This document shows positions 32,183-52,723 of a stretch of DNA of 64,000 nt, piece by piece; within the stretch, counting starts at the first letter, position 1; the number at the start of each line of letters is the position of its first letter. The stretch covers positions 186,001 to 250,000 of the forward strand of contig NZ_JSVC01000015.1 of NCBI RefSeq assembly GCF_000814475.1, written 5' to 3'. The notes under the pieces were generated by a model that ran no database searches, was not told the DNA's origin, and saw nothing but the letters and a program-made list of their open reading frames with translations. This DNA is from Flavihumibacter solisilvae. GTDB lineage: Bacteria > Bacteroidota > Bacteroidia > Chitinophagales > Chitinophagaceae. The position numbers and the translations under genes are program-made.

Positions 32183-33391
32183 ATGATCATCACGAATGAA
32201 TCCTTGCCCTCCCGTACCTCGCAGAAAAGCCTGTCGGCCTATGCCTCCCTATATAAAGATGAATTGCTGGATAACATCCTTCCTTTCTGGCTGAATAACA
32301 GCAGGGATGAAGTCAACGGCGGTTACTTCACCTGCCTCGACCGCGAAGGCCGGGTTTTCGATACCGATAAATTTATGTGGCTGCAGGGCCGGGGCGTCTG
32401 GTGCTTCAGTACCATGTACGATAAGGTAAGTCCCGATCCCCAATGGCTGGCTATGGCGCTTCACGGGGCAGCCTTCATGGAAAAGTATGGACGGGATAAG
32501 GACGGCAACTGGTATTTTTCACACACGGCCGACGGTAAACCCCTGGTTCAGCCTTATAATATCTTCAGTGACTGCTTTGCTACCATGGCTTTTGCTGCCC
32601 TGGACAAGGTCAGTCCGAACGAGCGTTACCGGAAGATCGCGCTCGACACATTTGAAAACATCCTTCGCAGGCAGCACGACTGGAAAGGGAAATATAATAA
32701 AGCATTCCCCGGCACCAGGCCGCTCCGCAACTTCAGCCTGCCTATGATCCTTTGTAATCTTTCCCTCGAACTGGAGCACCTCCTCGGGCCAGCACGAGTG
32801 GATGAATTCATTCCCACAGTGATCAGGGAAGTGATGGAAGTGTTTTACCAGCAGGACACCGGGCTCATCATGGAAAATGTTGCCCCCGACGGAACCTTCT
32901 CCGATAGCTTTGAAGGAAGACTGGTCAACCCGGGTCACGCCATCGAAGCCATGTGGTTCATGATGGATCTCGGGAAAAGAATTAATGACGATACGCTGAT
33001 CAGGACATCCACTGACCGCATGATCCGAATGCTTGAATACGGATGGGATCCCGAGCATGGCGGCATATTTTACTTCCGCGATATAAAAAATCATCCGCCG
33101 CAACAATTGGAGTGGGACCAGAAACTTTGGTGGGTGCATGTGGAAACACTTGTAGCGCTTGCCAAGGGATACGCCTATACCGGCGATGAAAGATGTGCAA
33201 ACTGGTTTCATCTCGTTCATGCATACACGTGGGAACACTTCCGCGACGACCAGTTCGGCGAATGGTACGGTTACCTCAACAGGAAAGGGGAGGTACTGCT
33301 GAACCTCAAGGGCGGTAAATGGAAAGGTTGCTTCCACGTTCCAAGGGCACTCTTCCAGGTTTGGAGAACACTTGAAACCCTGTCCATTTAA
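32183..33391 (+). CDS. AGE-family N-acylglucosamine 2-epimerase/isomerase
   Basis: 402 residues, cytoplasmic, the usual AGE length. The (alpha/alpha)6-barrel signatures are present: FWLNNSRDEVNGGYFTCLDR (35-54), MWLQGRGVWCF (64-74), NPGHAIEAMWFMMDLGKR and DQKLWWVHVETLVAL. These match the residues that line the active site (His in PGH and the tryptophans). Members interconvert GlcNAc/ManNAc, glucose/mannose or cellobiose epimers. As the first gene of PUL2 it should process an imported sugar. Which sugar is not decided by sequence. Confidence 0.9.
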   Translation: MIITNESLPSRTSQKSLSAYASLYKDELLDNILPFWLNNSRDEVNGGYFTCLDREGRVFDTDKFMWLQGRGVWCFSTMYDKVSPDPQWLAMALHGAAFMEKYGRDKDGNWYFSHTADGKPLVQPYNIFSDCFATMAFAALDKVSPNERYRKIALDTFENILRRQHDWKGKYNKAFPGTRPLRNFSLPMILCNLSLELEHLLGPARVDEFIPTVIREVMEVFYQQDTGLIMENVAPDGTFSDSFEGRLVNPGHAIEAMWFMMDLGKRINDDTLIRTSTDRMIRMLEYGWDPEHGGIFYFRDIKNHPPQQLEWDQKLWWVHVETLVALAKGYAYTGDERCANWFHLVHAYTWEHFRDDQFGEWYGYLNRKGEVLLNLKGGKWKGCFHVPRALFQVWRTLETLSI

Positions 33392-33400
33392 CCCCGCCAT

Positions 33401-35269
33401 ATGAAACGATTGCTAACCATATTTACCATTCTTGCCTCGGCCTCTATGGCCTGTGGAACAGCTCCTGCGACCGATTCAGTGATCCGCACCGAAGTACTGG
33501 TAGTAGGTGGCGGAACCGGCGGAACCGCAGCAGGAATCCAGTCAGCCCGACTCGGCAGCAAAACCATAATCGTTGAACCTACCTCATGGCTGGGTGGAAT
33601 GATTTCCGCTGCAGGTGTATCTGCTACTGATGGGAACCATCGCCTTCCTTCCGGGATCTGGAAGGAGTTCCGTGACCGCATTTATGCCGTTTATGGCGGA
33701 CCGGCAAAAGTGGAAACCGGCTGGGTGAGCAATACCCTCTTCGAACCACGCGTGGCAGACAGCATCTTTAAAGCAATGGCGGCAGAGTCGAAGGACCTTT
33801 CTATTTATTATGGCTGGCGATTTGACAAAGCCATTAAAGAAGGCAACAAAATAACTGGTGCAGTTTTCATCAATGATAAAAATGAAACGCTCACCATCAA
33901 TGCCGACATCACGATCGATGCAACTGAAATGGGTGATGTGATGGCTTCGGCCGCTGTTCCCTACGACCTCGGCATGGAAGCCGGCAGCCTCACTGGCGAA
34001 CGTGTAGGCATAACCGAAACCAATAATGTTGTACAGGACCTTACCTGGGTGGCAGTATTAAAAGATTACGGTTCCGCTGCCGATTGCACGATCGTTCGCC
34101 CGCAGGGTTATGATCCCAACGAATTCGACGGCGCCTGCAAAGAATATTACCTCAATAAGCAGTTGCCTGAACCAACGGTCAATGCGCAGGCAATGCTCGA
34201 CTACACGAAGATTCCCAATGGAAAATACCTGCTCAACTGGCCAAAGGCCGGGAATGATACTTACCTCAATGTTGTTGAGCTCACTGAAGAACAACGCAAC
34301 GCTGAACTTGAAAAAGCTAAGGCGACTACTATGCGCTTCATCTATTTCATCCAGCACCAGTTGGGCTATAAAAACCTTGGACTGGCAAACGATGAATTTC
34401 CAACTGCAGATAAACTTGCACTGATACCTTACCATCGTGAAGGAAGAAGGTTGAAAGGAATGGTTCGCTTTACCATGCGTAACCTGGCCGAACCATTTAC
34501 CTACGGCGACCCGGTTTACCGTACCGGTATCTCGGTTGGCGACTACCCAATAGATCACCACCACAAGAAAAATCTTTCAGCTCCGCAACACCTCGAATTT
34601 TATCCTGTCCCTTCATTCAATGTGCCGCTGGGTACACTGATTCCGAAAGAGGCGGAAGGATTGATCGTTGCCGAAAAAGGGATCAGTGTAAGTAACGTAG
34701 TTAACGGTACAACCCGCCTTCAGCCCTGTGTAATGCTTACCGGCCAGGCAGCAGGTGTGCTTGCTTCATTAAGTGCGAAGCAACACACAACACCTGCACA
34801 GGTGACAGTGCGCTCAGTACAGAAAGCATTGATGCAATCCGGTGCATGGCTGATGCCATACCTGGATGTGCCTGCTGATCGCCCGCAGTTTGCAGCCATT
34901 CAACGTATAGGCGCAACCGGGATCCTGAAAGGTAAAGGCATTCCCTATAAATGGGCGAACCAGACCTGGTTCTACCCCGACTCCACTGTTAGCGAAACAA
35001 CACTCGTGGATGGACTTGCCACTTACTATCCCAACGTTAAGGCTGCCACAGTAAAAGAAGGAAATGATGTAAATGCAGAAACGCTTTACAAACTGATCCT
35101 GATGGCGGACCCTTCTATAAACAGCTTTAAACTCAAGACTTCACTGAAGCCATTTAGCGGTGCCATGAAACGCAGCGAGATCGCGGTGGTGATCGATGAG
35201 TACCTCAAACCTTTCGATAAGGAAGTCGATCTCAACGGACGACTGAATAATACAAAACCCAAGTTTTAA
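33401..35269 (+). CDS. FAD-dependent oxidoreductase (FAD_oxidored family), exported
   Basis: 622 residues. A signal with a possible lipobox (SMAC, Cys18) precedes the dinucleotide motif VLVVGGGTGGTAAGIQSARLG (32-52). The family segment SWLGGMISAAGVSATDGNH follows, with the C-terminal AEKGISVSNVVNGTTRLQPC and TGQAAGVLASL. Proteins of this family occur in sugar-degradation loci and may oxidise a sugar hydroxyl, but the electron acceptor and substrate are unknown. The last 100 residues look like a separate small helical region. Nine bases separate it from the epimerase gene. Confidence 0.82.
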   Translation: MKRLLTIFTILASASMACGTAPATDSVIRTEVLVVGGGTGGTAAGIQSARLGSKTIIVEPTSWLGGMISAAGVSATDGNHRLPSGIWKEFRDRIYAVYGGPAKVETGWVSNTLFEPRVADSIFKAMAAESKDLSIYYGWRFDKAIKEGNKITGAVFINDKNETLTINADITIDATEMGDVMASAAVPYDLGMEAGSLTGERVGITETNNVVQDLTWVAVLKDYGSAADCTIVRPQGYDPNEFDGACKEYYLNKQLPEPTVNAQAMLDYTKIPNGKYLLNWPKAGNDTYLNVVELTEEQRNAELEKAKATTMRFIYFIQHQLGYKNLGLANDEFPTADKLALIPYHREGRRLKGMVRFTMRNLAEPFTYGDPVYRTGISVGDYPIDHHHKKNLSAPQHLEFYPVPSFNVPLGTLIPKEAEGLIVAEKGISVSNVVNGTTRLQPCVMLTGQAAGVLASLSAKQHTTPAQVTVRSVQKALMQSGAWLMPYLDVPADRPQFAAIQRIGATGILKGKGIPYKWANQTWFYPDSTVSETTLVDGLATYYPNVKAATVKEGNDVNAETLYKLILMADPSINSFKLKTSLKPFSGAMKRSEIAVVIDEYLKPFDKEVDLNGRLNNTKPKF

Positions 35270-35285
35270 CCCAACACAATTGTTT

Positions 35286-38200
35286 ATGAGCCATTACAAA
35301 ATTTCGATGAAATCCTGGCGCAGGTTGTTGTTGTTGCTGCTGGCAATAGTGGTACAGCAGGGCATAACGTTTGCGCAAACGGGGACTGTTAGCGGAACTG
35401 TAAAAGATGATAAGGGTAGTCCGATACCCAGCGCTACCGTACAGGTTGCGAACAGCCAGCGTATGGTGCTGACCGATGAAAAGGGAAGCTTTACGATCGG
35501 GGCGGATGCAGAACGTGTGACGCTTGTAATTTCTTCCGCAGGTTATATAACTGCAAATTTCTCTGCGCGTACAGGCCAGTCCGTTGATATTATACTGAAA
35601 AAGCAACTTAAAGATCTTGATGAAGTAGTTGTGGTTGCCTACGGTCAGCAGAAGAAAACCAACGTGGTAGGATCTGTCTCCCAGATCAGCGGTGAGCAGC
35701 TTAAGCAGGCGCCGACCATGAACGTTACCAACATGCTGGCGGGTCGTTTGCCGGGACTCATCTCCCTGCAACAATCCGGTCGCCCGGGAGCGGATGATGC
35801 AGCGCTGCGTATTCGTGGTATCAGCAGTTATGGCACAAACCAGGCGCCGCTGATCATCGTGGACGGTGTACAGCGTCCATCTTTCAGTAACCTGGATCCC
35901 AGTGAAATTGAAAGCATCACCCTGTTGAAAGATGCGGTGTCTACAGCCGTTTACGGTTTACAGGCTGCGAACGGCATCATCCTCGTAACAACGAAAAGAG
36001 GTAAAGCCCAGAAGACTGTCATCAGTTATGATGGTGCGGTAACAATGAACCAGAACACACGCTTCCCGAAATTCCTGAATGGTCCTGATTATATGCAATG
36101 GTATAATAAGGGTACCGATATGGATAACGACTATAATATGCAGGTCGGTGCCAACCCCGCACCCTATATCTATACGCAGGAGCAGATAGATGCGCTCAGG
36201 AACGGAACCAATACGAACCCGTTGCTTGGTAATACAGACTGGGTTGGTGAACTTGTTGGTAAAAATGCCTTTTCCCAGAGTCATAGCATCAGCCTGCGTG
36301 GTGGAACCGACAAGATCAAATTCTTCTCACAGGTCGGCATGCTTGACCAGGATGGTGTTGTGAACAATACCGGTTTCAAACGTTATAACGTCCGCACAAA
36401 CGTAGATGCTGAACTGACGAAAGTTTTCAGTGTAGCGCTTGATCTCGGCATCCGCCAGACAAATACCAAAACTCCTGGTATCTCTCCGGATAACACGGCA
36501 TATCTCAACCCATTCTACCAGGCGGTACGCATGTTGCCTAACCTGCCGATGTATGCTCCAAATGGATTGCCTACAGCACACTTCAGCAACGCTGGCTGGG
36601 TGAATCCCCTCGCTTCGGTTAACCAGTCGGGTTACCAGAATAACCAGTCGAATGTATTCCAGGGTAACCTGACCTTCAAAGTAAAAGTACCTTGGGTAAA
36701 AGGTCTTGAACTTAAGTTGTTAACAGCTTATGACAAAACAGGAAATGAAGCAAAAGGCTGGCTGACTCCGTATACCCTGATGGGTAGAAACCGCGACCAA
36801 GTAACGGGAGATTTTATTGAAATCAATACACTTCCTGGTATTACCCGTACCACACTACGTCAATCATACGGCCAGAATAACCGTAAGGTTTTTCAGCCCA
36901 GCATTTCATACAATGGAAATTTTGGTGATCATAGTGTTACAGCCCTTGCCTTATATGAGTGGTCACAGTATAAAAGCAACGTATTTTCAACTGGGGCAAG
37001 TAATTTCCCGCTGACGGACATTCACGAAATTAATTTCGGTAGTACCGCTACCGAAGATCTCATTTCGCCTACCGGATCAAGTGGTGTGGATTCACGTGCC
37101 GGATATGTTGGAAGGATCAACTATGGATTCAAAGAGAAATATCTTTTGGAACTAGCCGGCCGGGTAGACGCTTCCGTTAACTTCCCGAAGTATAACCGTT
37201 GGCAGCTTTTCCCTGCCGTAGGTGCAGGTTGGATAGTAAGTAAGGAAGACTTCTTCGATGGTCTCAGCAATACGGTTGATTTCCTGAAGATCAAAGGTTC
37301 ATATGGACAAACTGGAAACGACCAAATAGGAAGTTTCCAATACTTGCAGACATATGCACTTACAGCTGACCCGGTAATGGTCATCGGGGGCAAACCGGTT
37401 TCGGCGCTGTATACCTCGGCACCACCGAATACTAACCTGGACTGGGAAACGGCGACAATTACCAATATCGGCTTTGAGTCTGTTTTCCTCAAAGGATTGA
37501 TAGCTGTTGATTTCGAATGGTTCTATAAGGTTACTACCGATATTTTGGGCGGTGTAAGTGGACTCTATCCAATGACCATTGGCGGATATTTTCCTGCCAC
37601 TGTCAATACTGGCATCATGGATAACCGCGGTTTCGACCTGCAGATCCGTCACCGCAATAAGATCGGCAAATTACAATATGGTGTAACCGGTAACCTGAAC
37701 TGGGCAAAGAACAAGTACATTCGTGTAGATGAAAGCGAGGGACTACCAGCATGGATGCGCAGGGTGGGGCAAAGCTATGGCGAGAAATATGGTTTTGTTG
37801 CAGAAGGCATGTACCAGACCTGGGAGGAAGCTGCTAACGCACCTTCACCAAGTGGTGGGGTAGTAGCACCCGGTTTCTTCCGTTATAAAGACATCAATGG
37901 CGACGGACGTATCACCCGTACCGATGATTTTGTTTCCATCGGTCGCAGCAATATCCCCGAACTGATGTATGGTCTCAACATTGATCTCAACTATGGAAAT
38001 TTCGATTTCTCTGTATTCTTCCAGGGCGCTGCCCTGAGCAGCGTTAGCCTCGCAGGTACATACGAAGGTTCAAGCGGAACTTCAGGTGTTGATGATAACA
38101 CGCCGTTCACCAAAACTTTCTATGGTTATGGTAACTCTCCCTATTTCCTCGTGGAGAATGCATGGACTCCTGACAACCCGAATGCAGAATTTCCAAGGCT

Positions 38201-38483
38201 CACCGCATATAAATCACAGTTGTCTGCTCACAACGCGCACATCAACTCCGGTTGGATCCGTGATGGCTCTTATGTGCGTCTGAAAGCAGTGCAGCTGGGA
38301 TATAACGTTCCATCAAAACTGTTAAATACAGTCAAGATCCAGAACCTCCGCGTATATGTTTCAGGATACAACCTGTTCACATGGGATAAGCTGAAATATC
38401 TCGACCCGGAAATGCCGAACGTAAACAACGGCTTTTATCCGCAACAGCGCATGATGTCAGGTGGTGTTAATGTTACCTTCTAA
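35286..38483 (+). CDS. SusC/RagA-family TonB-dependent transporter (PUL2)
   Basis: 1065 residues from ATG 35286; the frame extends two codons to a TTG. A signal peptide ends near FAQ. A CNA-B-like domain (about 35-110) with VSGTVKDDKGSPIPSATV follows, then the plug with VVVAYGQQKKTNVVGSVSQI, LIIVDGVQRPSFSNLDPSEI and AANGIILVTTKRG, and the barrel ending in VNVTF. Unlike the PUL1 transporter it has no STN domain, so it should not signal to a FecR protein. This fits the ROK regulator next to PUL2. It starts 16 bases after the oxidoreductase gene. Confidence 0.95.
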   Translation: MSHYKISMKSWRRLLLLLLAIVVQQGITFAQTGTVSGTVKDDKGSPIPSATVQVANSQRMVLTDEKGSFTIGADAERVTLVISSAGYITANFSARTGQSVDIILKKQLKDLDEVVVVAYGQQKKTNVVGSVSQISGEQLKQAPTMNVTNMLAGRLPGLISLQQSGRPGADDAALRIRGISSYGTNQAPLIIVDGVQRPSFSNLDPSEIESITLLKDAVSTAVYGLQAANGIILVTTKRGKAQKTVISYDGAVTMNQNTRFPKFLNGPDYMQWYNKGTDMDNDYNMQVGANPAPYIYTQEQIDALRNGTNTNPLLGNTDWVGELVGKNAFSQSHSISLRGGTDKIKFFSQVGMLDQDGVVNNTGFKRYNVRTNVDAELTKVFSVALDLGIRQTNTKTPGISPDNTAYLNPFYQAVRMLPNLPMYAPNGLPTAHFSNAGWVNPLASVNQSGYQNNQSNVFQGNLTFKVKVPWVKGLELKLLTAYDKTGNEAKGWLTPYTLMGRNRDQVTGDFIEINTLPGITRTTLRQSYGQNNRKVFQPSISYNGNFGDHSVTALALYEWSQYKSNVFSTGASNFPLTDIHEINFGSTATEDLISPTGSSGVDSRAGYVGRINYGFKEKYLLELAGRVDASVNFPKYNRWQLFPAVGAGWIVSKEDFFDGLSNTVDFLKIKGSYGQTGNDQIGSFQYLQTYALTADPVMVIGGKPVSALYTSAPPNTNLDWETATITNIGFESVFLKGLIAVDFEWFYKVTTDILGGVSGLYPMTIGGYFPATVNTGIMDNRGFDLQIRHRNKIGKLQYGVTGNLNWAKNKYIRVDESEGLPAWMRRVGQSYGEKYGFVAEGMYQTWEEAANAPSPSGGVVAPGFFRYKDINGDGRITRTDDFVSIGRSNIPELMYGLNIDLNYGNFDFSVFFQGAALSSVSLAGTYEGSSGTSGVDDNTPFTKTFYGYGNSPYFLVENAWTPDNPNAEFPRLTAYKSQLSAHNAHINSGWIRDGSYVRLKAVQLGYNVPSKLLNTVKIQNLRVYVSGYNLFTWDKLKYLDPEMPNVNNGFYPQQRMMSGGVNVTF

Positions 38484-38494
38484 AAAACAGAGCA

Positions 38495-40201
38495 ATGACC
38501 AAGTTATTATCAACTATACAGAAAACAGTAATTCTCGCAGGGATTGTGATGGCGGCCCAGGGTTGCAAGATCGATATCGAACCAACCGACCGCTATACTG
38601 AAGAAGCAGTTTGGAGCAATCCCGCGAATATGGAACTGTACATCAATGGCATGTACAATGAATTCAGAACTTTCCAGTTCGGCCAGTTCCCGATCGGTTA
38701 CGATAACGCAACGGACGCGCTGACCGATATCATGAAATATACTTCAACTGTTGCCGGTAACGGAACAGTGAACATCCTGGCTACTGATGCTTCACGTGTG
38801 AATGCAGCAGGACCAATGCTCAACTACTGGCAGGCCGGGTATGCGCGGATCCGCAGGATCAATGAATTCCTTGACGGTCTCGCGAAATACGGCAAGGTTG
38901 ACGCCGTTGCAAAGACCCAGTACGAAGCAGAAGCGCGCTTCATCCGTGGTTATGTGTATTTCTGGCTCGTTAAGCTTCACGGCAGCGTGGTGCTGATGGA
39001 AAACCTCGACCAGTATTCCAATAAGAACAATCCCCGTGCAAGCGAAGAGGATTGCTGGAAATTTGTAGCGGCTGACTTCCAATTTGCGGCTGACAATCTT
39101 CCAAAAGAATGGGATGCAGCCCACACTGGCAGGGCAACAAAAGGTGCTGCCCTCGGTATGCTCTCACGTACCTGGTTGTACGCGGCATCAATTGCGGAGT
39201 ATGATAAGAAACAATTCAACCAGGATCCGTTAACCGGTGTGTCAGCAGGCAGCGCTACTACCTACTACCAGAATGCAGCCACTGCCGCGGAACAGGTGAT
39301 CGCGCTGGCGAACGAAGGCTACTATGCACTTGAAGCCAACTTTGCCAATATCTTCACCAACAAGTCAACCCGCGAAGCCATCTTCAAGCTTGATTTCGTT
39401 GCGCCGCAGATCACACACCAGTATGATTTCGGATTTACGCCTCCCGGCGATGCACCTGGTCAGCCAATGGTATATGGAGTTCCAACTGCAGAGCTCGTAG
39501 ACGAATTCGAAATGAAAGACGGAACTGCTTTCTCCTGGTCAAATGGAACAATGGCAGCAAATCCTTACACAGATCGCGAACCGCGTTTCTACGCTACCAT
39601 CCTTTACAATGGTGCAAGCTGGAAAGGACGTACCATCAACACCCAGCCCACAAACTCCGTGGAAGGACTCGTTGAATACGGATCTACGCCTGAGCCACGT
39701 AAAACTGTTACGGGTTATTATACGCGCAAAATGCTGAATCCCCTGGTTAATGATTTCATGGTGTATAAGAGCACCCAAAGCTGGATCGAGCTGCGCTATG
39801 CAGAGATCCTGCTGATCCACGCTGAAGCAAAGGCAAAACTTAATGACCTCGGTGCTGCTGCCACTTCCCTGAATATGGTACGCGACCGTGTTGGCCTTCC
39901 TGATGTTAATCCCGCCAACGCAACACAGATGATGAATGCCATCGAACATGAGCGGATCGTTGAACTTGCGTTTGAAGGTCACCGTTACTGGGACCTCCGC
40001 CGCTGGAGAAAAGCACATACTGTCCTGAATGACGTTCGCTTCACCGGGCATAAAGTGACTCCTGCAGGTTCCGGGTTCAACTACGAAGTGATCAGTGCCG
40101 ATAACCTCGACCGGAAGTTTACGCCTGCATTGTATTACATGCCTATTTATGTAAGTGAACTGCAGAACAATACGGCCCTCACCCAAATCCAGGGCTGGTG
40201 A
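38495..40201 (+). CDS. SusD/RagB-family surface glycan-binding lipoprotein (PUL2)
   Basis: 568 residues with a lipobox ending at Cys24 (AAQGCKI). SusD features: EAVWSNPANMELYINGMYNEF, the EARFIRGYVYFWLVKLHGSVV helix, and the C-terminal EHERIVELAFEGHRYWDLRR segment. It should pair with the SusC protein encoded 11 bases upstream and hold the glycan at the cell surface. The sequence is quite different from the PUL1 SusD, so a different ligand is likely. Confidence 0.95.
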   Translation: MTKLLSTIQKTVILAGIVMAAQGCKIDIEPTDRYTEEAVWSNPANMELYINGMYNEFRTFQFGQFPIGYDNATDALTDIMKYTSTVAGNGTVNILATDASRVNAAGPMLNYWQAGYARIRRINEFLDGLAKYGKVDAVAKTQYEAEARFIRGYVYFWLVKLHGSVVLMENLDQYSNKNNPRASEEDCWKFVAADFQFAADNLPKEWDAAHTGRATKGAALGMLSRTWLYAASIAEYDKKQFNQDPLTGVSAGSATTYYQNAATAAEQVIALANEGYYALEANFANIFTNKSTREAIFKLDFVAPQITHQYDFGFTPPGDAPGQPMVYGVPTAELVDEFEMKDGTAFSWSNGTMAANPYTDREPRFYATILYNGASWKGRTINTQPTNSVEGLVEYGSTPEPRKTVTGYYTRKMLNPLVNDFMVYKSTQSWIELRYAEILLIHAEAKAKLNDLGAAATSLNMVRDRVGLPDVNPANATQMMNAIEHERIVELAFEGHRYWDLRRWRKAHTVLNDVRFTGHKVTPAGSGFNYEVISADNLDRKFTPALYYMPIYVSELQNNTALTQIQGW

Positions 40202-40233
40202 TCCTGCTTTAACTCACAGCAAAAACTAACGTA

Positions 40234-41907: not shown

Positions 41908-41922
41908 TCAATTAAAATATTC

Positions 41923-43326: not shown

Positions 43327-43332
43327 ACAAAA

Positions 43333-44730: not shown

Positions 44731-45434
44731 AAGGAAATAACATCTTGCGGAACCTGGCTTTGGCTGCAAGCTCCCTGCTTTTTGTTCCCGCTGCCAATGC
44801 GCAGCAGGTCGACAAGAAAGTTTATGATTCGTCGTATCATAATTATCTCTACGATAGCCGTACCGCGTATTTCCGCCAACTGCCGGTTGTGAAAAAGCCA
44901 ATTGTATTTTTCGGCGACAGCATCACGCATTGGGGCGACTGGGCCGAATTTACCGGGTTTTCGAAAGTGCTGAACCGCGGCATCTCCGGCGACAATTCAT
45001 TCGGACTGCTCGCCCGCCTCGATGAAGTGGCGCGTCATCAGCCTGCAAAACTTTTCGTGCTGATCGGAACAAACGACCTGAACCTTAACAGTAATGCAGC
45101 CATTCAGCAGGTGGTAATGAACTATCGCCGGCTTGTGCAGGAAGTTAGCCGCTTGTCACCCGCGACTAAAATTTATATTCAAAGTGTTTTTCCGATCAAC
45201 GACCAGCTGATCAACACAAAATATTATAAGGGCACAAATACACAGGTAAGGGAAATGAACAAACAACTCGAATCCCTCGCCCGCGAACTTTCCATCCGTT
45301 ATGTGGATGTATATAGCAGCCTGCTCGACCAGTCGAACCAGCTGGCTGCCCGATTTACTTACGATGGACTTCACTTGTCCGGCGAAGGTTATCTTGCATG
45401 GGTTAATCACTTAAAAAAAGAAAGACTGTTATGA
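44718..45434 (+). CDS. SGNH/GDSL-family esterase 1, exported
   Basis: 238 residues from ATG 44718, overlapping the DUF5009 stop by 13 bases; another ATG two codons earlier is possible. A signal peptide ends near ANAQ (about 28). SGNH blocks: FFGDSITHWGDW (Ser68), NRGISGDN (87-93), GTND (Asn119) and DGLH near the C-terminus (Asp216, His219). It should remove an O-acyl group from a glycan in the periplasm. It is less like the two other esterases of the operon than they are to each other. Confidence 0.9.
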   Translation: MENLKGNNILRNLALAASSLLFVPAANAQQVDKKVYDSSYHNYLYDSRTAYFRQLPVVKKPIVFFGDSITHWGDWAEFTGFSKVLNRGISGDNSFGLLARLDEVARHQPAKLFVLIGTNDLNLNSNAAIQQVVMNYRRLVQEVSRLSPATKIYIQSVFPINDQLINTKYYKGTNTQVREMNKQLESLARELSIRYVDVYSSLLDQSNQLAARFTYDGLHLSGEGYLAWVNHLKKERLL

Positions 45435-46450
45435 AGAACCTCATGCTTTACCTGTTATTGATGGCATGCGTACCCGTAGTCGCACAGGAAACGGTTTCAT
45501 CTGTCCAACTGGATAGTTACCTGATCGATTCTGCGACAAAGAAAGTCGGCACCCTGCACCTGGTAAATAAAACAGGTAATCCGGTATTCCAGTTAAAAGG
45601 TGCAGGCCGTAAATCATTTGAGATCCGTAACGGGAATGAATTGTACTGGAAGAAGACAAAGCAGCCTGATCGCAATGCCTACGACATTACGGTGACAGAT
45701 GGGGCAACTTCTGCGGATTTCCGGATCCTTAAAAACCAGTTCCATCGGAACAAGGTAATCGCACATCGTGGTGCATTTAAGAATACCGGCGCTACTGAGA
45801 ATTCGATCGGCTCATTGAAACATGCCATCGCACTGGGATGTGAAGGATCGGAATTTGACATTCACATGTCATCAGACTCTGTTCCTTTCATTCACCATGA
45901 TCCGACAATCGACAGCATCACTATTGAAAAAACTTCGTCAGCGACTCTTGCAAAGCTTAAACTTCCGAATGGCGAGTTCCTGCCGACGCTCGATGCCTAC
46001 CTGGCAGCCGGGGTTAAGCAATACACAACAAAACTGATCGTGGAAATAAAGCCTTCTGTTATCAGCAAGGAACGCGCAATTGCGCTCACCCGGAAGGTTG
46101 TTGCCGCCATCTATAAGCATAAAGCCCAGGCATGGGTTGACTATATCAGTTTCGACTATGAGATACTGAAAGAAGTGCTCAGGCTCGATCCTTATGCACG
46201 CGTTGCCTACCTGCGCGGCGATGTTGATCCCGGCAAAATTGCTGCCGACAAAATGTTTGGTATCGATTATAATTCAGGTGTATTTCAAAAGAAACCGGAA
46301 TGGATTACAGCTGCGAAAAAGAATAATCTCACGATAAACGTGTGGACAGTAAACGACCCTGCGCTGATGGACTGGTTCCTGCAGCAACAGGTTGATTTCA
46401 TTACCACCAACGAACCGGAACTGTTGCTGAAAAAGATTAACGTTCACTAA
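45431..46450 (+). CDS. Glycerophosphodiester phosphodiesterase, exported
   Basis: 339 residues with a signal peptide (about 1-18). A small N-terminal beta domain covers about 20-110. The GDPD barrel begins at VIAHRGAFKNTGATENSIGS with the catalytic and metal-binding HRG, EN, EFDIH and IHHDP motifs, and ends in TTNEPELLLK. GDPD enzymes cleave glycerophosphodiesters to glycerol-3-phosphate and an alcohol. In this operon it may cut a phosphoglycerol or similar decoration of the imported glycan. The start overlaps the esterase stop as ATGA. Confidence 0.92.
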   Translation: MKNLMLYLLLMACVPVVAQETVSSVQLDSYLIDSATKKVGTLHLVNKTGNPVFQLKGAGRKSFEIRNGNELYWKKTKQPDRNAYDITVTDGATSADFRILKNQFHRNKVIAHRGAFKNTGATENSIGSLKHAIALGCEGSEFDIHMSSDSVPFIHHDPTIDSITIEKTSSATLAKLKLPNGEFLPTLDAYLAAGVKQYTTKLIVEIKPSVISKERAIALTRKVVAAIYKHKAQAWVDYISFDYEILKEVLRLDPYARVAYLRGDVDPGKIAADKMFGIDYNSGVFQKKPEWITAAKKNNLTINVWTVNDPALMDWFLQQQVDFITTNEPELLLKKINVH

Positions 46451-46469
46451 ATCATAACTGCCCCCTGAC

Positions 46470-48332
46470 ATGAATCTTGCTACTATTGACATAGTCATAA
46501 TCCTGCTCTATATCGTCGCTATCGTCGGAATCGGTTTCTGGATCTCCAAAAAAGCTTCAAAGAATATCCAATCGTATTTTCTTGGTGACAACAACATTAA
46601 GTGGTACTGGCTGGGTTTCAGCAATAGTAGCGGCATGTTCGATGTAAGTGGCACCGCGTTTTATGTTGCCCTGCTCTTTGTATATGGTTTCAAAGCCGCG
46701 TGGCTGCCCTGGCTGTGGCCCATCTGGAACCAGATCTTTGTAATGGTGTTCCTCGCCATCTGGATCCGCCGAAGCAATGCCATGACCGGCGCCGACTGGA
46801 TCATCAAACGTTTCGGTGATGACAAAGGTGGAAGGCTCGCGCACATGATCGTGGTGGTCTTCGCCATTATCAGTGTGATCGGGTTTATCGGTTATGTATA
46901 TGTCGGCATTGGCAAGTTTGCGTCAAACCTGCTGCCATGGGACTTATCCAATGCGGTCCTTACCAACGCACAGACCTATGCGCTGATCATTGTTGCGCTC
47001 ACCACATTTTATACTGTTAAAGGGGGGATGTACAGCGTAGTGGCTACAGAGGTGCTCCAATATGGCATTCTCGTTGTGAGCTGCCTGCTGGTCGTTGCCT
47101 ATGCAGTTCGCGATATCGATTACGGTGTGCTGCAAAGCAACCTGCCATCCGGCTGGGCCAGCTTCTGGCCGGAATGGAAGCTCAATGTAGATTGGAACAG
47201 CCGCTTCCCGCAGGCAACACAGAAGATCGCTGAAGATGGGTTCACCTGGTTCGGTGCATTGCTCATGATGATGATTGCCAAAGGAATTTTTGCCAGTCTC
47301 GCAGGACCAGTCCCGGGTTTCGATATGCAACGCATCCTCAGCGCCAAGAAACCCCGTGAAGCTGCGATGCTCACAGGGTTCACCAACCTCGTGCTCTATA
47401 TTCCCCTGTTCATGATGGTGAGTGCACTCACCCTGGTCGGCATCCAGTACCTGATGCCCGTATTGCAGAACCAGCAAAAGCCTGATTTCGAGATCGTGCT
47501 GAGCAAAGTGGTGAGCGACTACCTGCCCTCCGGAATCCGGGGAATTGTGCTGGCAGGTTTGCTGGCATCATTTATGAGTACTTTCTCGGCCTTCGTGAAT
47601 GCTGCCCCCGCGTACCTGGTCAATGATTTCTATAAAAAATATTTCCGCCCTGATGAACCGCCTGCACACTATGTGAAATGGAGTTATGTTACCTCCATCA
47701 GCATTATCCTGGTAGGCTGCGTATTCGGCCTGTTTGCAGAGTCCCTTAGTTCTCTTACCATCTGGATCACTTCCGCATTGTATGGCGGTTATGCTGCAGC
47801 CAATGTGCTTAAGTGGATCTGGTGGCGCTTCAATGGCTACGGGTATTTTGCCGGTATGCTCGCCGGGTTGTTGTCCGCAACCTTCGTTCCGAAACTGATG
47901 CAGTGGCTGGCTAATAACTATATCCCGGAATGTAAGGAACTGTTCGCAAGCAGTATCGGAACCCTGATCTCTTTCTTCCTGATCCTCTTCCTGTCAATGG
48001 CGGGTAGTGTAATAGGTTGCCTGCTCACCCCGGCGCCAAACCAGAAAGTGCTCGAGAGCTTTTATGCCAACACCCGCCCCTGGGGCTGGTGGACTCCAGT
48101 TCTGAAACTTGTTCAGAAAACCGATCCGGGTTTCCAGCCCAACCGCCAGTTCAAATGGGATATGCTGAACGTGCTTGTCGGCATTTGCTGGCAGATGAGC
48201 ATGGTGATCATGCCTATCTTCTTTGTCTTCGGATTCTTCCGCAACGGGTTCATCGCCATGGGCGTCTGGATCACCTGCATGGCTATCCTGAAATTCACCT
48301 GGTACGATCGTTTAAAAATAACCGCAGCATGA
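46470..48332 (+). CDS. Sodium:solute symporter (SSS family)
   Basis: 620 residues, about 14 membrane helices, no cleavable signal. The SSS pattern is visible in YFLGDNNIKWYWLGFSNSS, a WLPWLWPIWNQ helix, and GLLASFMSTFSAFVNAAPAY in helix 8-9, the region holding the sodium-site serines. It should import the final sugar, sugar acid or polyol through the inner membrane for the epimerase and other cytoplasmic enzymes. It is typical of sialate/sugar-type SSS members in length. It starts 19 bases after the GDPD gene. Confidence 0.92.
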   Translation: MNLATIDIVIILLYIVAIVGIGFWISKKASKNIQSYFLGDNNIKWYWLGFSNSSGMFDVSGTAFYVALLFVYGFKAAWLPWLWPIWNQIFVMVFLAIWIRRSNAMTGADWIIKRFGDDKGGRLAHMIVVVFAIISVIGFIGYVYVGIGKFASNLLPWDLSNAVLTNAQTYALIIVALTTFYTVKGGMYSVVATEVLQYGILVVSCLLVVAYAVRDIDYGVLQSNLPSGWASFWPEWKLNVDWNSRFPQATQKIAEDGFTWFGALLMMMIAKGIFASLAGPVPGFDMQRILSAKKPREAAMLTGFTNLVLYIPLFMMVSALTLVGIQYLMPVLQNQQKPDFEIVLSKVVSDYLPSGIRGIVLAGLLASFMSTFSAFVNAAPAYLVNDFYKKYFRPDEPPAHYVKWSYVTSISIILVGCVFGLFAESLSSLTIWITSALYGGYAAANVLKWIWWRFNGYGYFAGMLAGLLSATFVPKLMQWLANNYIPECKELFASSIGTLISFFLILFLSMAGSVIGCLLTPAPNQKVLESFYANTRPWGWWTPVLKLVQKTDPGFQPNRQFKWDMLNVLVGICWQMSMVIMPIFFVFGFFRNGFIAMGVWITCMAILKFTWYDRLKITAA

Positions 48333-49009
48333 AATCAATAATGAAGTTCACGATGCTGGCAGCCCTTGCACTGCCTGCAATCGCATCAACAGCACAGGAA
48401 GTAGACAGCAGCTATAACAATGGCTATTACCGCGACCGGCTCGCTTTCTTCAATAAATTACCCAACAGCAAAAATGAAATTGTTTTCCTGGGTAACAGTA
48501 TCACCGAAGTCGGCGACTGGCAGGAGATCTATCCCGGACAAACCATTGTTAACCGTGGCATCAGTGGCGATAATTCCTTCGGCGTCTTTGCACGCCTCGA
48601 CGAAGTGCTTGAGTCAAAGCCTGCTAAGATCTTCCTCATGATAGGGGTAAATGACATTAAGCGCGGAACGCCCAACGAATACATCGCAGCCAACTACCGG
48701 AGAATAGTGGAAAAGGTTAAAGCAGTCTCCCCGCGTACAAAGATCTATTTGCAAAGCGTGCTGCCTGTAACGGAATCCGTTCTCGCAGATATCTATGCAA
48801 AGATCAAGAATGACAAGATCCGCGACCTGAACACAAAGATGAAAGCGATCGCAGCGGAGAATAAACTCGTATACATAGACCTGCATAACGAAGTGTTTGC
48901 AGATGGGAACGGCCAGTTGAAACGTGACCTTACTACAGACGGCCTTCACCTTAAACCTGCAGCTTACATTTTGTGGGTCGATTATTTACGCAAGAAAAAA
49001 TACTTATAA
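48329..49009 (+). CDS. SGNH/GDSL-family esterase 2, exported
   Basis: 226 residues from ATG 48329, overlapping the symporter stop as ATGA. The frame is open far upstream but only inside the symporter gene. A signal peptide covers about 1-22. SGNH blocks: FLGNSITEVGDW (Ser57, with Asn in place of the Asp in GDS), NRGISGDNSFG, IGVNDI and DGLHL. It is closely related to the next gene product over its whole length, so the pair looks like a tandem duplication. Confidence 0.9.
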   Translation: MKSIMKFTMLAALALPAIASTAQEVDSSYNNGYYRDRLAFFNKLPNSKNEIVFLGNSITEVGDWQEIYPGQTIVNRGISGDNSFGVFARLDEVLESKPAKIFLMIGVNDIKRGTPNEYIAANYRRIVEKVKAVSPRTKIYLQSVLPVTESVLADIYAKIKNDKIRDLNTKMKAIAAENKLVYIDLHNEVFADGNGQLKRDLTTDGLHLKPAAYILWVDYLRKKKYL

Positions 49010-49010
49010 A

Positions 49011-49688
49011 GTGAAAGGAATAATAACCGGCGGCTTGATCTGTGTCGCGCTGGCCTCATCCGCACAGTCTACGCCCAAAAAGATCGACAGCAGCTATAAC
49101 AATACCTATTACCAGGGAAGGATGGAGCTATTTGCCAGTCTCCCGGGTCAAAAGAATGCTATCGTTTTCCTTGGCAACAGCATTACCGAAAGAGGGCAGT
49201 GGCACGAGCTGTTGCCCGGTACAGTGATCATGAATCGTGGCATCGGCGGCGACAATACCTTTGGCGTCCTGGCCCGCCTCGACGATATCCTGGAATACAA
49301 ACCAAAAAAGTTGTTCCTGCTGATTGGTATCAACGATATTGGTCGCGGCTTACCGGTTGAAGTAATAACGGCCAACTATAAGCGCATCGTGGAGCGAATA
49401 GTCGCCGCCTCTCCCAAAACAAAACTTTATGTCCAGAGCGTGCTGCCGATGAACGACGCCGTACTTAAATACGATTACCTGAAAAATAAGAAGGATACTG
49501 TCCTCGCGCTGAACCGGAATATCCAGGGAATCGCGAAAGCCGGCAACCTCACGTACATCAACCTGCACGAGGTCTTCGCCGATGAGAAAGGGGACCTGAA
49601 AGCGACTTATACCCCCGATGGCATTCATATTAACCCCGCGGCCTATGCTGCATGGGTCAAATACCTGAAAGACAAAAAATACCTCTGA
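49011..49688 (+). CDS. SGNH/GDSL-family esterase 3, exported
   Basis: 225 residues from GTG 49011, one base after the previous stop. The open frame upstream overlaps esterase 2 and has no sense there, while GTG gives a proper signal peptide (about 1-19). SGNH blocks: FLGNSITERGQW (Ser57), NRGIGGDNTFG, IGINDI and DGIHI. The segment DSSYNN at 26-31 and most of the core match esterase 2. It presumably deacylates the same glycan at another position or with another acyl group. Confidence 0.9.
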   Translation: MKGIITGGLICVALASSAQSTPKKIDSSYNNTYYQGRMELFASLPGQKNAIVFLGNSITERGQWHELLPGTVIMNRGIGGDNTFGVLARLDDILEYKPKKLFLLIGINDIGRGLPVEVITANYKRIVERIVAASPKTKLYVQSVLPMNDAVLKYDYLKNKKDTVLALNRNIQGIAKAGNLTYINLHEVFADEKGDLKATYTPDGIHINPAAYAAWVKYLKDKKYL

Positions 49689-49695
49689 CATTACC

Positions 49696-50628
49696 ATGAA
49701 AATAACCGGCACATTCATAGATGAGATCAGCCACGATATCCCGCACCAGAACTGGGGCGCGGAGGAGTGGGACCGTGACTTTGCCCACATGAAAGCCATA
49801 GGTATCGACACGGTGATCCTGATCAGGAGTGGGTACAGGAGGTTTATCACTTATCCATCCAAATACCTGCAGCAGGAATTTGGCTGTTATGAGCCGCCTG
49901 TTGACCTCGTTAAGCTTTACCTCGAGGTGGCGGACAAACATGGCATGCAGTTTTATTTCGGTCTTTACGATAGCGGTCGCTATTGGGATACAGGTAACAT
50001 GCAGCATGAGATCGATGCCAACAGGTATGTGATCGATGAAGTATGGAACCAGTATGGCAGTTACAAGAGTTTTAAAGGCTGGTACCTGAGTATGGAGATC
50101 AGCCGGAAAACAAAAGGTGCTGCAGACGCATTCCGCACGCTCGGACTGCAATGTAAACAGGCAAGCAATGGACTGCCTACATTTATCTCGCCGTGGATAG
50201 ATGGAAAGAAGGCGGTGATGGCAGCTTCTTCTACAATATCTAAAGAAGATGCCGTTTCGCTGAAAGAACATGAGCAGGAGTGGAGCGAGATCTTTTCGCA
50301 GCTGAATGGCGCGGTCGATGCCGTCGCCTTCCAGGATGGTCATATTGACTATCATGAGCTGGAAGACTTCTTCGCTGTCAATAAAAAGATGGCCGATACA
50401 TTCGGATTGCAATGCTGGACAAACGCCGAGTCCTTTGACCGGGACATGCCCATCAAGTTCCTGCCCATCAAGTTCGAAAAGCTGCGGTTGAAGCTGGAAG
50501 CTGCACGCCGGGCTGGCTATGACAAGGCCATCACTTTCGAGTTCTCGCATTTCATGAGCCCGCAATCTGCATACCTGCAGGCAGGTCACCTGTACAACCG
50601 TTACCGCGAATACATCCGGACTTTTTAA
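49696..50628 (+). CDS. DUF4434-family TIM-barrel protein, cytoplasmic
   Basis: 310 residues without a signal peptide. It begins directly with the DUF4434 fold: MKITGTFIDEISHDIPHQNW, WDRDFAHMKAIGIDTVILIR, MQFYFGLYDSGRYW, FKGWYLSMEI and DAVAFQDG. DUF4434 proteins are GH-like barrels found in Bacteroidota sugar loci; no activity is established, though acidic residues in the expected barrel positions (YLSMEI, FQDGHIDYHELED) fit a glycosidase. Being cytoplasmic it would act after import. Seven bases from esterase 3. Confidence 0.8.
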   Translation: MKITGTFIDEISHDIPHQNWGAEEWDRDFAHMKAIGIDTVILIRSGYRRFITYPSKYLQQEFGCYEPPVDLVKLYLEVADKHGMQFYFGLYDSGRYWDTGNMQHEIDANRYVIDEVWNQYGSYKSFKGWYLSMEISRKTKGAADAFRTLGLQCKQASNGLPTFISPWIDGKKAVMAASSTISKEDAVSLKEHEQEWSEIFSQLNGAVDAVAFQDGHIDYHELEDFFAVNKKMADTFGLQCWTNAESFDRDMPIKFLPIKFEKLRLKLEAARRAGYDKAITFEFSHFMSPQSAYLQAGHLYNRYREYIRTF

Positions 50629-50654
50629 TTCCTATCACCAATCATATTTTCATT

Positions 50655-51851
50655 ATGAACCTGATTCAAACCAATGCCGTAAAAACTGTCCTGGCCTCTG
50701 TAATGATGGCTGCAGGCATTACGTCTGCCTCGGCGCAAACTATCACTGCAGCACACGAAGCTGCGATCCGGGAAGCTAAGCAGGGTACTATTGTGCAATT
50801 GCCCGGCCTGCTGACAGAAAAAATGTCAAACCTCGACTACAAAAAAGTGGTGATGCCTGGTCCGCAGTATATTATTTCTGATGATCCGGAATATATCCGG
50901 ATCCCGGAAGGGATTGCTCTGAAGGAAGTAGTGCAGCCCGGTTCTGTCCGGCTTTATGTATATAACGTGAACGGTGTTAAAGAGCCGGCAAAGATCGACC
51001 GCAAGATCACAGCTGTTATTAAGAACCTCGGTACCGGAAAGATGAGTATCAAGATGCTGAAGTATTCTTCACAGAAACCCAGCACCAATTACTTCCAGAT
51101 CGGGAAACAGGGACTGGCAGAATACTTCGCTTCAAAGCCGCAGGATAAGGTTCGTACGGTTAAACCTGGTGAAGCAATTCCCATCGACGAACAACTTGAA
51201 AAGAATATAGTGAAGTACGATGAGCTGGTGCATGGCTTCTACGAATTCGTGGTGGACCAGCCAGCGGAGATCAGCATCATCCAGACAGACCCCGGTACGC
51301 CTGGTCCGAAGGCACTGGCCCGGATCAAGGGTGTGATCACTTCTGCGCATGCGAATGCCGGTCGCGGACTGTTTGGTGTGAGCAACTATAAAGTAACCAG
51401 CACATCAGCGATCGATACAAAGAATGGTCCCGTTGCTATGGTGGTTGCTGATGGTGACAAAGATCCATGGGTGCTGGGTACAGACGCGAGCCTTGGTGTT
51501 GAAGCAAAACTCGCCGGCAACTATGGCGTGATGTACAATATGGAGATCAAATGGAAAAGCACGGATGGAAAGGCGCTTGCCCTTGTGACCTGGAACGCAC
51601 GCAGTGGCGACAACAAATGGTGTGGTGGAATGGCCAACAGCATGGTAGTAAGCAAAGGGAAATTTGATGATGGCATCATCCAGCTTCCTTCCGACAAGCT
51701 GATCACCCGTGCCGCGCCTGAAGCGATCCTGGTACAGGTGTTCCAGCCATCCGCTAACGGTGAGGAGCAGACGATCAAGCTAACGTATTCACCTCCCGGC
51801 GCATCCTGCCTCCCTACGCCACTTATTTTTATCCCGGTATCTGTTCAATAA
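50655..51851 (+). CDS. Exported protein of unknown family (PUL2)
   Basis: 398 residues. A signal peptide ends near ASAQ (about 27). I do not recognise the family. The chain looks beta-rich, with segments such as VRLYVYNVNGVKEPAKIDRK, ITAVIKNLGTGKMSIKML and a C-terminal KLTYSPPGASCLPTPL. A central EYFASKPQDKVRTVKPGEAI part is charged, and there are no transmembrane segments or obvious catalytic motif. It lies between the DUF4434 and esterase genes with 26- and 8-base gaps, so it is part of the operon and may bind or present the glycan. Confidence 0.6.
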   Translation: MNLIQTNAVKTVLASVMMAAGITSASAQTITAAHEAAIREAKQGTIVQLPGLLTEKMSNLDYKKVVMPGPQYIISDDPEYIRIPEGIALKEVVQPGSVRLYVYNVNGVKEPAKIDRKITAVIKNLGTGKMSIKMLKYSSQKPSTNYFQIGKQGLAEYFASKPQDKVRTVKPGEAIPIDEQLEKNIVKYDELVHGFYEFVVDQPAEISIIQTDPGTPGPKALARIKGVITSAHANAGRGLFGVSNYKVTSTSAIDTKNGPVAMVVADGDKDPWVLGTDASLGVEAKLAGNYGVMYNMEIKWKSTDGKALALVTWNARSGDNKWCGGMANSMVVSKGKFDDGIIQLPSDKLITRAAPEAILVQVFQPSANGEEQTIKLTYSPPGASCLPTPLIFIPVSVQ

Positions 51852-51859
51852 TCTGATCC

Positions 51860-52723
51860 ATGCTTAACAGGTATTTACTGCTGATCGCATTCTTCCTCCC
51901 GGTTTGCGGTGCCTTTGCCCAACAGCAACCCGGATCAAAACCGGAGCGGACCACTTATGCGATAAAAGGTAACGATACTTTGTGGTTTGAACGGTATAGT
52001 CCCCGTGTGCAGCCAAACGGAATCTCCGTCCTGTTTGTGCACGGGGGCGCATTTACCGGCGGTGACCCAGCCAACCAGCACCCTATGGGGAACGGGCTTG
52101 CCGCTCTCGGCTATAATGTTTTTGTAATTAAGTACCGGTTGTACCTGAAAGGGAAAAGTTTCGGTTGTACAACCCCGACAGGTGAAAAACTGAAGGCCAT
52201 CCGGTATGCGGTGGAAGACGCAATGGATGCGACTGCCTACCTGGCGAATCATGCAGCCGAATTGGGTGTTGATACCTCCCGGTTGTTCATCTCAGGCAGC
52301 AGTGCCGGGGCTGAAGCAATCCTGAATGTAGTATACAACCCGTTCGCTGCCAACCGCTTCCATTATGCCGGTCTCATGTCATTTGCAGGTGCCATTGTCG
52401 ACATGAATAAAGTAACAAAGGAAAACTGGATCCCCGCCCTGCTCATGCATGGTACCCGCGACCAGCTCGTGCCATTCGGAACTGCTGCCCATCGTTTTTG
52501 CCGGGCAACTGACGAAGGCTGGCTGATGTTGTCTGGTTCGGGTTCGGTATTTGAATTTGCAAAGCGTAATAAACTCCCTGCAGCGCTTTATACCTATGAA
52601 GGCGGTGGACATGAGGTAAGCAACTATATGTTCAGGCGTTTCGAAGAAATGGACGCGTTCATGAAGCAGGCTGTTTCGAGAAAGAAAATGAATGCAAAGG
52701 AAATCAGGAAAGCAAAAGGCTAG
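51860..52723 (+). CDS. Alpha/beta-hydrolase esterase, exported (last gene of PUL2)
   Basis: 287 residues with a signal peptide (about 1-20). The oxyanion motif HGGAF is at 61-65 and the nucleophile elbow GSSAG follows in FISGSSAGAEAIL; a His near GGGHEVSNYMF completes the likely triad. It resembles the HSL/carboxylesterase or feruloyl-esterase-like group. A role in removing acyl groups from the glycan fits the three SGNH genes before it. Its stop overlaps, tail to tail by 4 bases, the stop of the minus-strand hydrolase gene. Confidence 0.87.
   Translation: MLNRYLLLIAFFLPVCGAFAQQQPGSKPERTTYAIKGNDTLWFERYSPRVQPNGISVLFVHGGAFTGGDPANQHPMGNGLAALGYNVFVIKYRLYLKGKSFGCTTPTGEKLKAIRYAVEDAMDATAYLANHAAELGVDTSRLFISGSSAGAEAILNVVYNPFAANRFHYAGLMSFAGAIVDMNKVTKENWIPALLMHGTRDQLVPFGTAAHRFCRATDEGWLMLSGSGSVFEFAKRNKLPAALYTYEGGGHEVSNYMFRRFEEMDAFMKQAVSRKKMNAKEIRKAKG

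Follow-up and report, generated by a model that had tools for sequence, protein, structure and literature searches.

The window analysed here is a stretch of 64,000 nucleotides of Flavihumibacter solisilvae (contig C7:186001-250000 of the 5.41 Mb genome), and our subject is the operon at positions 32183-52723 of this window, in which fifteen consecutive genes on the + strand overlap slightly or lie at most 32 bases apart. A preliminary description, made from the sequence alone, had proposed a 15-gene operon with such short gaps, and the gene coordinates bear it out; the gene identities given there (four exported esterases, a glycerophosphodiesterase, a DUF5009 protein, an epimerase, an FAD oxidoreductase, a symporter and two barrel proteins) also agree with the Pfam and NCBIfam matches. 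Adjacent susC and susD homologues, by which a polysaccharide utilization locus (PUL) is recognized, are present. In our judgment the unit may well be, with about equal chances of this being right or wrong, one version of an uncharacterised class of PUL, widespread across the phylum, whose glycan would be O-acylated, carry phosphodiesters and be rich in amino sugars of the N-acetylglucosamine (GlcNAc) and N-acetylmannosamine (ManNAc) type.

Genes of the operon and its regulator

The first gene (32183-33391, +) encodes a cytosolic N-acyl-D-glucosamine 2-epimerase (AGE; NF052547), predicted to convert ManNAc to GlcNAc. It is followed by an exported FAD-dependent oxidoreductase (33401-35269, +; PF12831, 314 bits), a SusC/RagA outer-membrane transporter (35280-38483, +; TIGR04056, 898.9 bits), a SusD-type surface glycan-binding lipoprotein (38495-40201, +; PF07980, 189.5 bits) and a DUF5018 surface lipoprotein that probably binds glycan as well (40234-41907, +; PF16410, 135.7 bits). 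The next product (41923-43326, +) is a surface lipoprotein that combines GHL10 (PF02638, 79.6 bits) with DUF4985 (PF16373, 79.5 bits). Downstream lies a NagX-like DUF5009 membrane protein (43333-44730, +; PF16401, 343.9 bits), probably a transmembrane amino-sugar N-acetyltransferase and related to NagX at most, as it misses the cut-off of the NagX NCBIfam equivalog (38.6 vs 480 bits). There follow an exported GDSL/SGNH esterase (44712-45434, +; PF13472, 98 bits), an exported glycerophosphodiester phosphodiesterase (GDPD; 45431-46450, +; PF03009, 95.8 bits), an SSF sodium:solute symporter, by family an inner-membrane sugar importer (46470-48332, +; PF00474, 98.2 bits), and two further exported GDSL/SGNH esterases (48329-49009 and 49011-49688, both +; PF13472, 104.4 and 102.9 bits). 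The operon ends with a cytosolic (beta/alpha)8 protein of the DUF4434 family (49696-50628, +; PF14488, 282.3 bits), a recurrent accessory gene for an exported, mostly beta protein without family, here named ORFX (50655-51851, +), and an exported alpha/beta-hydrolase esterase of the BD-FAE/Abhydrolase_3 type (51860-52723, +; PF20434, 52.5 bits). Export signals were recognized by eye in the four esterases, GDPD, the FAD protein and ORFX, and none was seen by eye in AGE and DUF4434. The mechanically assigned starts of the three GDSL reading frames (44637, 48017 and 48924) make them too long, and 44712, 48329 and 49011 are the likelier ones.

A divergent gene upstream (30699-31934, -) encodes a ROK-family regulator with a winged helix-turn-helix (PF00480, 183 bits; PF13412), probably a repressor; its score against NCBIfam NagC is below the cut-off (201.3 vs 650 bits). 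In 17 of 78 relatives the DUF4434 gene run has a divergent ROK-type gene at its head, so this regulator is probably part of the unit. The Bacteroidetes-type promoter motif, TTTG-N17-23-TAnnTTTG, was not found upstream of 32183. At the other end, the last gene converges on a proline-iminopeptidase-like gene (52720-53619, -). The unit is flanked by two ECF-type sigma factors with DUF6596 (28205-29443, +, and 53585-54850, -). DUF5077 had 0 matches in the genome, in a search where no control matched either.

Conservation of the DUF4434 gene neighbourhood

At least 565 DUF4434 relatives were confirmed among at least 596 pattern matches, and 80 loci were kept; the nearest relatives among the matches listed are from Rufibacter, Niastella, Longitalea, Chitinophaga and Pedobacter. 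Of 147 genomes of the family, 21 have DUF4434 at E 1e-3 (in G083 only weakly and in G131 in fragments), and of 296 sampled across the phylum 16 have it at E 1e-60. Gene runs were counted in 78 of the 80 loci, L101 and L128 being left out as no DUF4434 reading frame was called there. The same-strand run around DUF4434 includes AGE in 40 loci, DUF5009 in 31, SusD in 27, DUF5018, FAD and an MFS transporter cluster (Sugar_tr by Pfam) in 26 each, GHL10 in 24 and SSF in 19, and directly after DUF4434 comes AGE in 32 loci and a member of that MFS cluster in 23. Related loci combine ROK, a transporter, AGE, SusCD, DUF5018, GHL10, DUF5009 and esterases in varying subsets.

The regions of 10.5 kb on either side of DUF4434 were then compared with control regions. 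DUF4434 was located by tblastn in all 120 loci of this comparison, 73 of which have full flanks (47 lack them), and the 40 control SusD loci were hand-picked in listing order among the matches listed for 15 genomes, with SusD genes near DUF4434 left out. The comparison, which is biased in that the reference proteins come from the case loci, the controls were hand-picked and the genome sets partly overlap, gave AGE in 38 of the 73 case windows vs 1 of the 40 control windows, GHL10 in 44 vs 1, DUF5009 in 41 vs 0, GDSL in 49 vs 0 and a transporter in 58 vs 4. Any gene for phosphodiester cleavage (GDPD, the phosphodiester glycosidase NAGPA, or the MetallophosN/C type, here METALLO) was present in 22 case windows vs 1 control window, divided by family into NAGPA 9 vs 1, METALLO 12 vs 1 and GDPD 3 vs 0. 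With only those cases counted that belong to the 15 control genomes, AGE was found in 8 of 15, DUF5009 in 9 and any phosphodiester gene in 7. The sole control with AGE, GHL10, NAGPA and METALLO (L183, G490:C1:3637200-3657100) is the same PUL without DUF4434, consisting of ROK, MFS, AGE, SusCD, DUF5018, NAGPA, GHL10, METALLO and SASA, and its genome carries DUF4434-MFS-AGE elsewhere.

The phosphodiester genes also recur at a comparable position. In the stretch from GHL10 to the symporter, which holds GDPD in the window, NAGPA is found in G029 and G015 and a calcineurin-type phosphoesterase in G055, G085 and G084 (the last with no symporter there). Additionally, a whole-genome search of the family sample with a hidden Markov model, a check independent of the case-locus reference proteins, gave 93 NAGPA hits, 32 of them in DUF4434 genomes; five of these 32 lie within 10 kb of DUF4434 (G029, G015, G066, G010 and G131), where about 0.13 would be expected (Poisson 3e-7). 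Moreover, in two distant genomes (L140 and L141; DUF4434 48-50% identical) an MFS-NAGPA pair is divergent to DUF4434-AGE. This recurrence of phosphodiester genes at homologous loci fits a phosphoglycan substrate. An acylated phosphoglycan had been suggested in the preliminary description, and the four esterases, GDPD and the recurrent phosphodiester genes agree with that part of it; the pointer to amino sugars given by AGE and DUF5009 had been missed, as had the phylum-wide distribution and the inferred counterpart in Bacteroides thetaiotaomicron.

This counterpart is suggested by three genomes of one genus (G489, G433 and G483) whose DUF4434 is 97-100% identical to BT_0435; the genus was taken as Bacteroides because of this identity of up to 100%. 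The order ROK-FAD-DUF4434-MFS runs up to the contig end in G489 and G433, and in G483 it continues to AGE, in two reading-frame pieces. The same genomes also contain DUF4434b-SusC-SusD-DUF5018-GHL10-GHL10-METALLO, followed by SASA, DUF5009, NAGPA and GDSL. In L165 the order is ROK, FAD, DUF4434, MFS, AGE, SusC, SusD, DUF5018, NAGPA, GHL10, and L168 has the same order without FAD. L209 (to the contig end), L210 and L211 have two or three GHL10 genes, METALLO, DUF5009, NAGPA and GDSL after DUF5018, with SASA in two of the three. We infer a counterpart gene order for B. thetaiotaomicron BT_0433-BT_0448, in which the locus tags fit up to SusC as BT_0439 if the second DUF4434 is BT_0438. The BT_0435 region with BT0439-BT0443 shares DUF4434 with the window operon, in the form of BT_0435, and the presumed Bacteroides loci differ from it in having MFS for SSF, METALLO and NAGPA for GDPD, a second DUF4434 and a SASA esterase. 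The substrate of the BT0439-BT0443 operon is stated as unknown in the literature passages concerned.

The epimerase and two candidate glycosidases

The operon AGE passes the NCBIfam equivalog NF052547 (667.9 bits vs a cut-off of 600). Among solved structures it matches the AGEs 6f04 (E 6.8e-158) and 2gz6 (E 4.7e-157), the best cellobiose epimerase being at 1.9e-19, and by sequence it is of the true monosaccharide-epimerase type. The conversion of ManNAc to GlcNAc is described as an established step in Bacteroidetes in the pertinent part of PMC3969230. AGE is present in 16 of 16 DUF4434 genomes vs 22 of 280 without DUF4434 (the 296 genomes of the phylum, both proteins at E 1e-60), with a Fisher P of 2e-16 that is only nominal because the genomes are related, and the two genes lie within about 25 kb of each other in 11 of the 16. 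At the DUF4434 locus of G370, AGE is just 35% identical to the window AGE, and its neighbour is a lyase-like gene from the sialic-acid superfamily whose scores miss every cut-off; this locus (L149, G370:C5:18000-37900) has two DUF4434 copies, with the distant AGE and the lyase-like gene joined to it. The single AGE found in G275 likewise adjoins a lyase-like gene of that superfamily. The AGE that accompanies DUF4434 can therefore differ in origin, yet it is present in every DUF4434 genome sampled.

These lyase-like genes bear on the possibility that the unit serves sialic-acid or sialoglycan utilization, with AGE taking ManNAc from a neuraminate lyase. AGE itself, the GDSL or SASA esterases, the gene arrangement in G370 and a weak NanU score of SusD (51.4 bits vs a cut-off of 425) would be in line with it. 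The neuraminate lyase family was found in none of the 15 operon genes, however, and the window unit has no sialidase. The genome has a separate nan-type locus (L212, G000:C4:6000-25900) with SusC, SusD, a lyase-like gene, an MFS-like gene, a second AGE (37% identical to the operon AGE), SASA, a sialidase-like gene (by eye) and GH20. Sialic acid was consequently rejected for the window operon, and as a general explanation it is very unlikely. The operon AGE is thus not needed for sialic acid, since the nan-type locus has its own, and it probably draws on ManNAc from another source in the cytosol. The curated NanA cut-off was reached in 0 of 29 genomes, which says little about absence because 28 of the 29 hold a weaker superfamily match. 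The sialic-acid (nan) operons of Tannerella and Bacteroides, as far as they are treated in the part of PMC3969230 concerned, resemble the window operon in SusCD-type uptake and in the epimerisation of ManNAc to GlcNAc, and the window operon differs from them in having no lyase and no sialidase in the unit, the nan-type locus of the genome being separate.

DUF4434 is the obvious candidate for a cytosolic ManNAc-releasing enzyme, because it has no export signal and is, in most cases, conserved more strongly than any other protein of the unit (at 68-88% in 16 members of the family, with SSF equal to it in G002). It exceeds the Pfam gathering score over its full length (282.3 vs 30 bits) and matches 4h41/BT_0435 at E 1.2e-161, with 70% identity over 295 aligned residues. 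The entry 4h41 is titled a putative alpha-L-fucosidase; in the open-licence literature we found no paper on this structure, nothing that connects DUF4434 with polysaccharide utilization, and nothing on an N-acetylmannosaminidase. The DUF4434 model (mean predicted local distance difference test score, pLDDT, 80.7) has eight barrel strands and superimposes on 4h41 with Z 35.5 and a root-mean-square deviation (rmsd) of 2.4 over 295 aligned residues. In this model E134 follows strand 4 (126-131) and E245 follows strand 7 (239-244), with a local pLDDT of 75 and 66, respectively. Both residues are invariant in 121 of 121 DUF4434 sequences, down to 47% identity (some from the same genomes), as are E282, D214, D9, E10 and D14. 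In retaining glycosidases of clan GH-A a (beta/alpha)8 barrel carries one catalytic Glu each at the ends of strands beta 4 and beta 7 (the Glu of beta 7 also according to part of PMC5765458), and the model predicts this very arrangement for DUF4434, which is probably a retaining clan GH-A-like glycosidase feeding AGE.

The next fold neighbours of DUF4434 are GH5 mannanases/mannosidases, Cwp19 and a GH164 beta-mannosidase, tied at Z 18-19 with an rmsd of 3.2-4.1. The mannosidases among these tied ranks would suit the utilization of host or fungal N-glycans or phosphomannan, in which DUF4434 would act as a beta-mannosidase on Man-GlcNAc; GH92, GH38 or GH20 genes near some relatives, and the link of BT_0439 to host glycans discussed below, would suit it as well. 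GH20 (7/73 vs 2/40) and GH92 (7/73 vs 5/40) are not enriched in the neighbourhood comparison, which is why N-glycans are not favoured, and the dependence of DUF4434 on AGE would be left unexplained, so that we consider this substrate unlikely. When 37 of the 56 run members left unassigned were tallied by Pfam family, no further recurrent glycosidase appeared among the 25 of 60 families listed.

The second candidate is the GHL10 protein (41923-43326), which exceeds the PF02638 gathering score (79.6 vs 27.9 bits) and matches Cwp19 of Clostridioides difficile at E 1.3e-8. Cwp19 is a characterised GHL10 member that cleaves peptidoglycan as a lytic transglycosylase, according to passages of PMC6016235. 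It shares the GHL10 barrel with the window protein, which differs from it as a lipoprotein with DUF4985 and without the wall-binding repeats of Cwp19. By analogy, the window protein is probably a surface endo-acting glycosidase. Nine strong GHL10-DUF4985 matches were found in the 147 family genomes, the window included (seven at 66% identity or more, G002 at 34% and G084 at 36%), and all nine genomes have DUF4434, at most 20 kb away in eight of them, G106 being the exception. The families of the operon that suggest glycan degradation are the esterases and GHL10, none matching a family known here by a CAZy GH number. By family names in the window, the claim that a recognized carbohydrate-active enzyme (CAZyme) of the glycosidase type is lacking therefore stands; in substance it does not, as the peptidoglycan-cleaving precedent of GHL10 and the GH-A-like barrel of DUF4434 led us to reject the absence of any glycosidase. 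The wording "no glycosidase" is better replaced by "unrecognised glycosidases", the probable ones being DUF4434 and GHL10.

Proposed pathway and candidate substrates

The pathway proposed here builds on the observed gene set, conservation, co-occurrence, fold and invariant residues, its catalytic steps being deduced from family, position and conservation. The esterases and the phosphodiesterase would remove acyl and phosphate groups, the surface GHL10 protein would cleave the glycan chain, and oligosaccharides would enter through SusCD. In the periplasm DUF5009 may re-acetylate free amino groups using cytosolic acetyl-CoA, after which the SSF symporter would carry the trimmed oligosaccharide into the cytosol. 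There DUF4434 would release ManNAc by means of E134 and E245, which follow strands beta 4 and beta 7, AGE would epimerise it to GlcNAc, and the ROK regulator might act as the amino-sugar sensor. The substrate class (amino-sugar, acylated and phosphodiester-bearing) is moderately supported.

Among ManNAc polymers, Gram-positive wall glycopolymers (the teichoic-acid linkage unit and secondary cell-wall polymers) are the favoured candidate, leading but unproven. The linkage unit of teichoic acids is ManNAc-beta-1,4-GlcNAc-1-P-6-MurNAc (MurNAc, N-acetylmuramic acid), and the substrate of human NAGPA is GlcNAc-1-P-6-mannose. If this linkage unit or a related secondary polymer were the substrate, GDPD or Metallophos enzymes would remove the polyol phosphate, the NAGPA of the relatives would cut GlcNAc-1-P-6-sugar, GHL10 would cut the attached glycan, and DUF4434 would be a cytosolic beta-N-acetylmannosaminidase. 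Such a substrate, which we propose tentatively and hold to be less likely than not, would unify AGE, NAGPA, GDPD/Metallophos, the esterases, GHL10 and DUF5009. It would also agree with the S66 LD-carboxypeptidase after DUF4434 in L146 and L148 and with YkuD-like proteins (by eye) in 3 loci. Passages of PMC11188070 add that teichoic acids are degraded by calcineurin-type PhoD and that NAGPA domains are fused to calcineurin-type surface proteins. Against it, S66 is found in just 2 loci, NAGPA is absent from the window operon, and the linkage unit accounts for little of the wall; in addition, the in vivo induction of the B. thetaiotaomicron operon, as given in the literature passages that mention it, may not need Gram-positive walls. 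An O-acetylated capsular or exopolysaccharide phosphoglycan of amino sugars (poly-HexNAc-1-phosphate type) would follow the same gene logic, with the phosphodiester glycosidase of the relatives, the O-acyl esterases and AGE, but nothing sets it apart from wall polymers and the GHL10 precedent is peptidoglycan; we regard it as rather unlikely. On the wall-polymer reading, DUF4434 could possibly found a new family of glycoside hydrolases; as a cytosolic beta-N-acetylmannosaminidase it would be central to a system, spread through the phylum and present in gut Bacteroides too, for ManNAc-containing bacterial phosphoglycans (such as teichoic-acid linkage units and secondary wall polymers), although we hold this extended claim to be doubtful. 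If it is true that wall polymers serve as food, Bacteroidota would have here a means of feeding on other bacteria.

Several observations weigh against the proposed system. Besides the bias of the neighbourhood comparison, neither NAGPA alone nor GDPD alone was significantly enriched there (73 vs 40 windows), and phosphodiester genes are present in a minority of loci (30/120), their family varying. NAGPA is widespread in any case, occurring in 75 of 147 genomes, and the only NAGPA of the window genome lies outside the operon. Just half of the loci (60 of 120) have AGE 10.5 kb or less from DUF4434, the AGE of the window itself being 17.5 kb away, and AGE is distant in five of the 16 DUF4434 genomes (G022, G275, G158, G177 and G272). 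The NagX and NagC scores given above are far below their cut-offs. The fold ranks of DUF4434 do not single out mannosides, as glucuronidases, cellulases and GH20 are found at Z 17-18. The BT0439-BT0443 operon is reportedly induced in animals without Gram-positive bacteria and, if so, a wall polymer would not be the inducer there. The proposed active site of Cwp19 includes Asp196, as stated in part of PMC5765458; in a weak phmmer alignment that may be shifted by one, this residue aligns with Tyr and Asp195 with Asp in the window GHL10, so that its activity cannot be assumed. Finally, BT_0439, a SusC, is linked to host glycans in passages of PMC5238430, which speaks against a wall polymer in particular.

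The gene set had been put forward as the best candidate of the window for an undescribed system, and indeed the open-licence literature searched yielded no characterised PUL of the same composition. The broadest comparison is with susC/D loci that have no CAZyme gene, which made up 52% of 28,250 surveyed loci according to the relevant part of PMC6499787; 576 of the CAZyme-less loci had phosphodiesterases, and nucleic acids were suggested there as the target for some of them (Lapebie 2019). The window operon shares with those loci the combination of SusCD and phosphodiesterase without CAZy families, and differs in its linked amino-sugar genes, contrary to the nucleic-acid suggestion. A nucleic-acid or other non-glycan target is extremely unlikely for this operon, given the amino-sugar genes AGE, GHL10 and DUF5009, to which relatives add a glucosamine-6-phosphate-isomerase/PIG-L fusion. 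For one widespread class, with at least 565 DUF4434 relatives, the operon offers a concrete alternative to nucleic acids, namely an amino-sugar phosphoglycan.

Other proteins also recur near DUF4434. ORFX (50655-51851) had no Pfam match at E 0.01 and no PDB sequence match at E 1; 16 of the 120 loci (the window counted) have it no farther than 10.5 kb from DUF4434, vs 0 of 40 control loci, and 14 aligned homologues are 55-71% identical. The fold search with its model gave a best Z of 6.6 (115 aligned, rmsd 3.8), and since this is under the usual noise level of the tool no fold was assigned; the RNA-transport, haemagglutinin and toxin chains that matched were taken as noise. An exported protein of about 290 residues, with no Pfam match in the single copy tested, recurs in 12 copies at 10 loci (L060:15952-16815, L103, L106 and L119 among them). 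A YkuD-like His / Ser-x-Gly-Cys motif was seen by eye in proteins at L103:2666-3991, L106:3077-4306 and L110:4390-5634, the one tested having no Pfam match. In two related genomes, a peptidase S66 (LD-carboxypeptidase) gene directly follows DUF4434 (L146:10970-12067 and L148:2057-3139).

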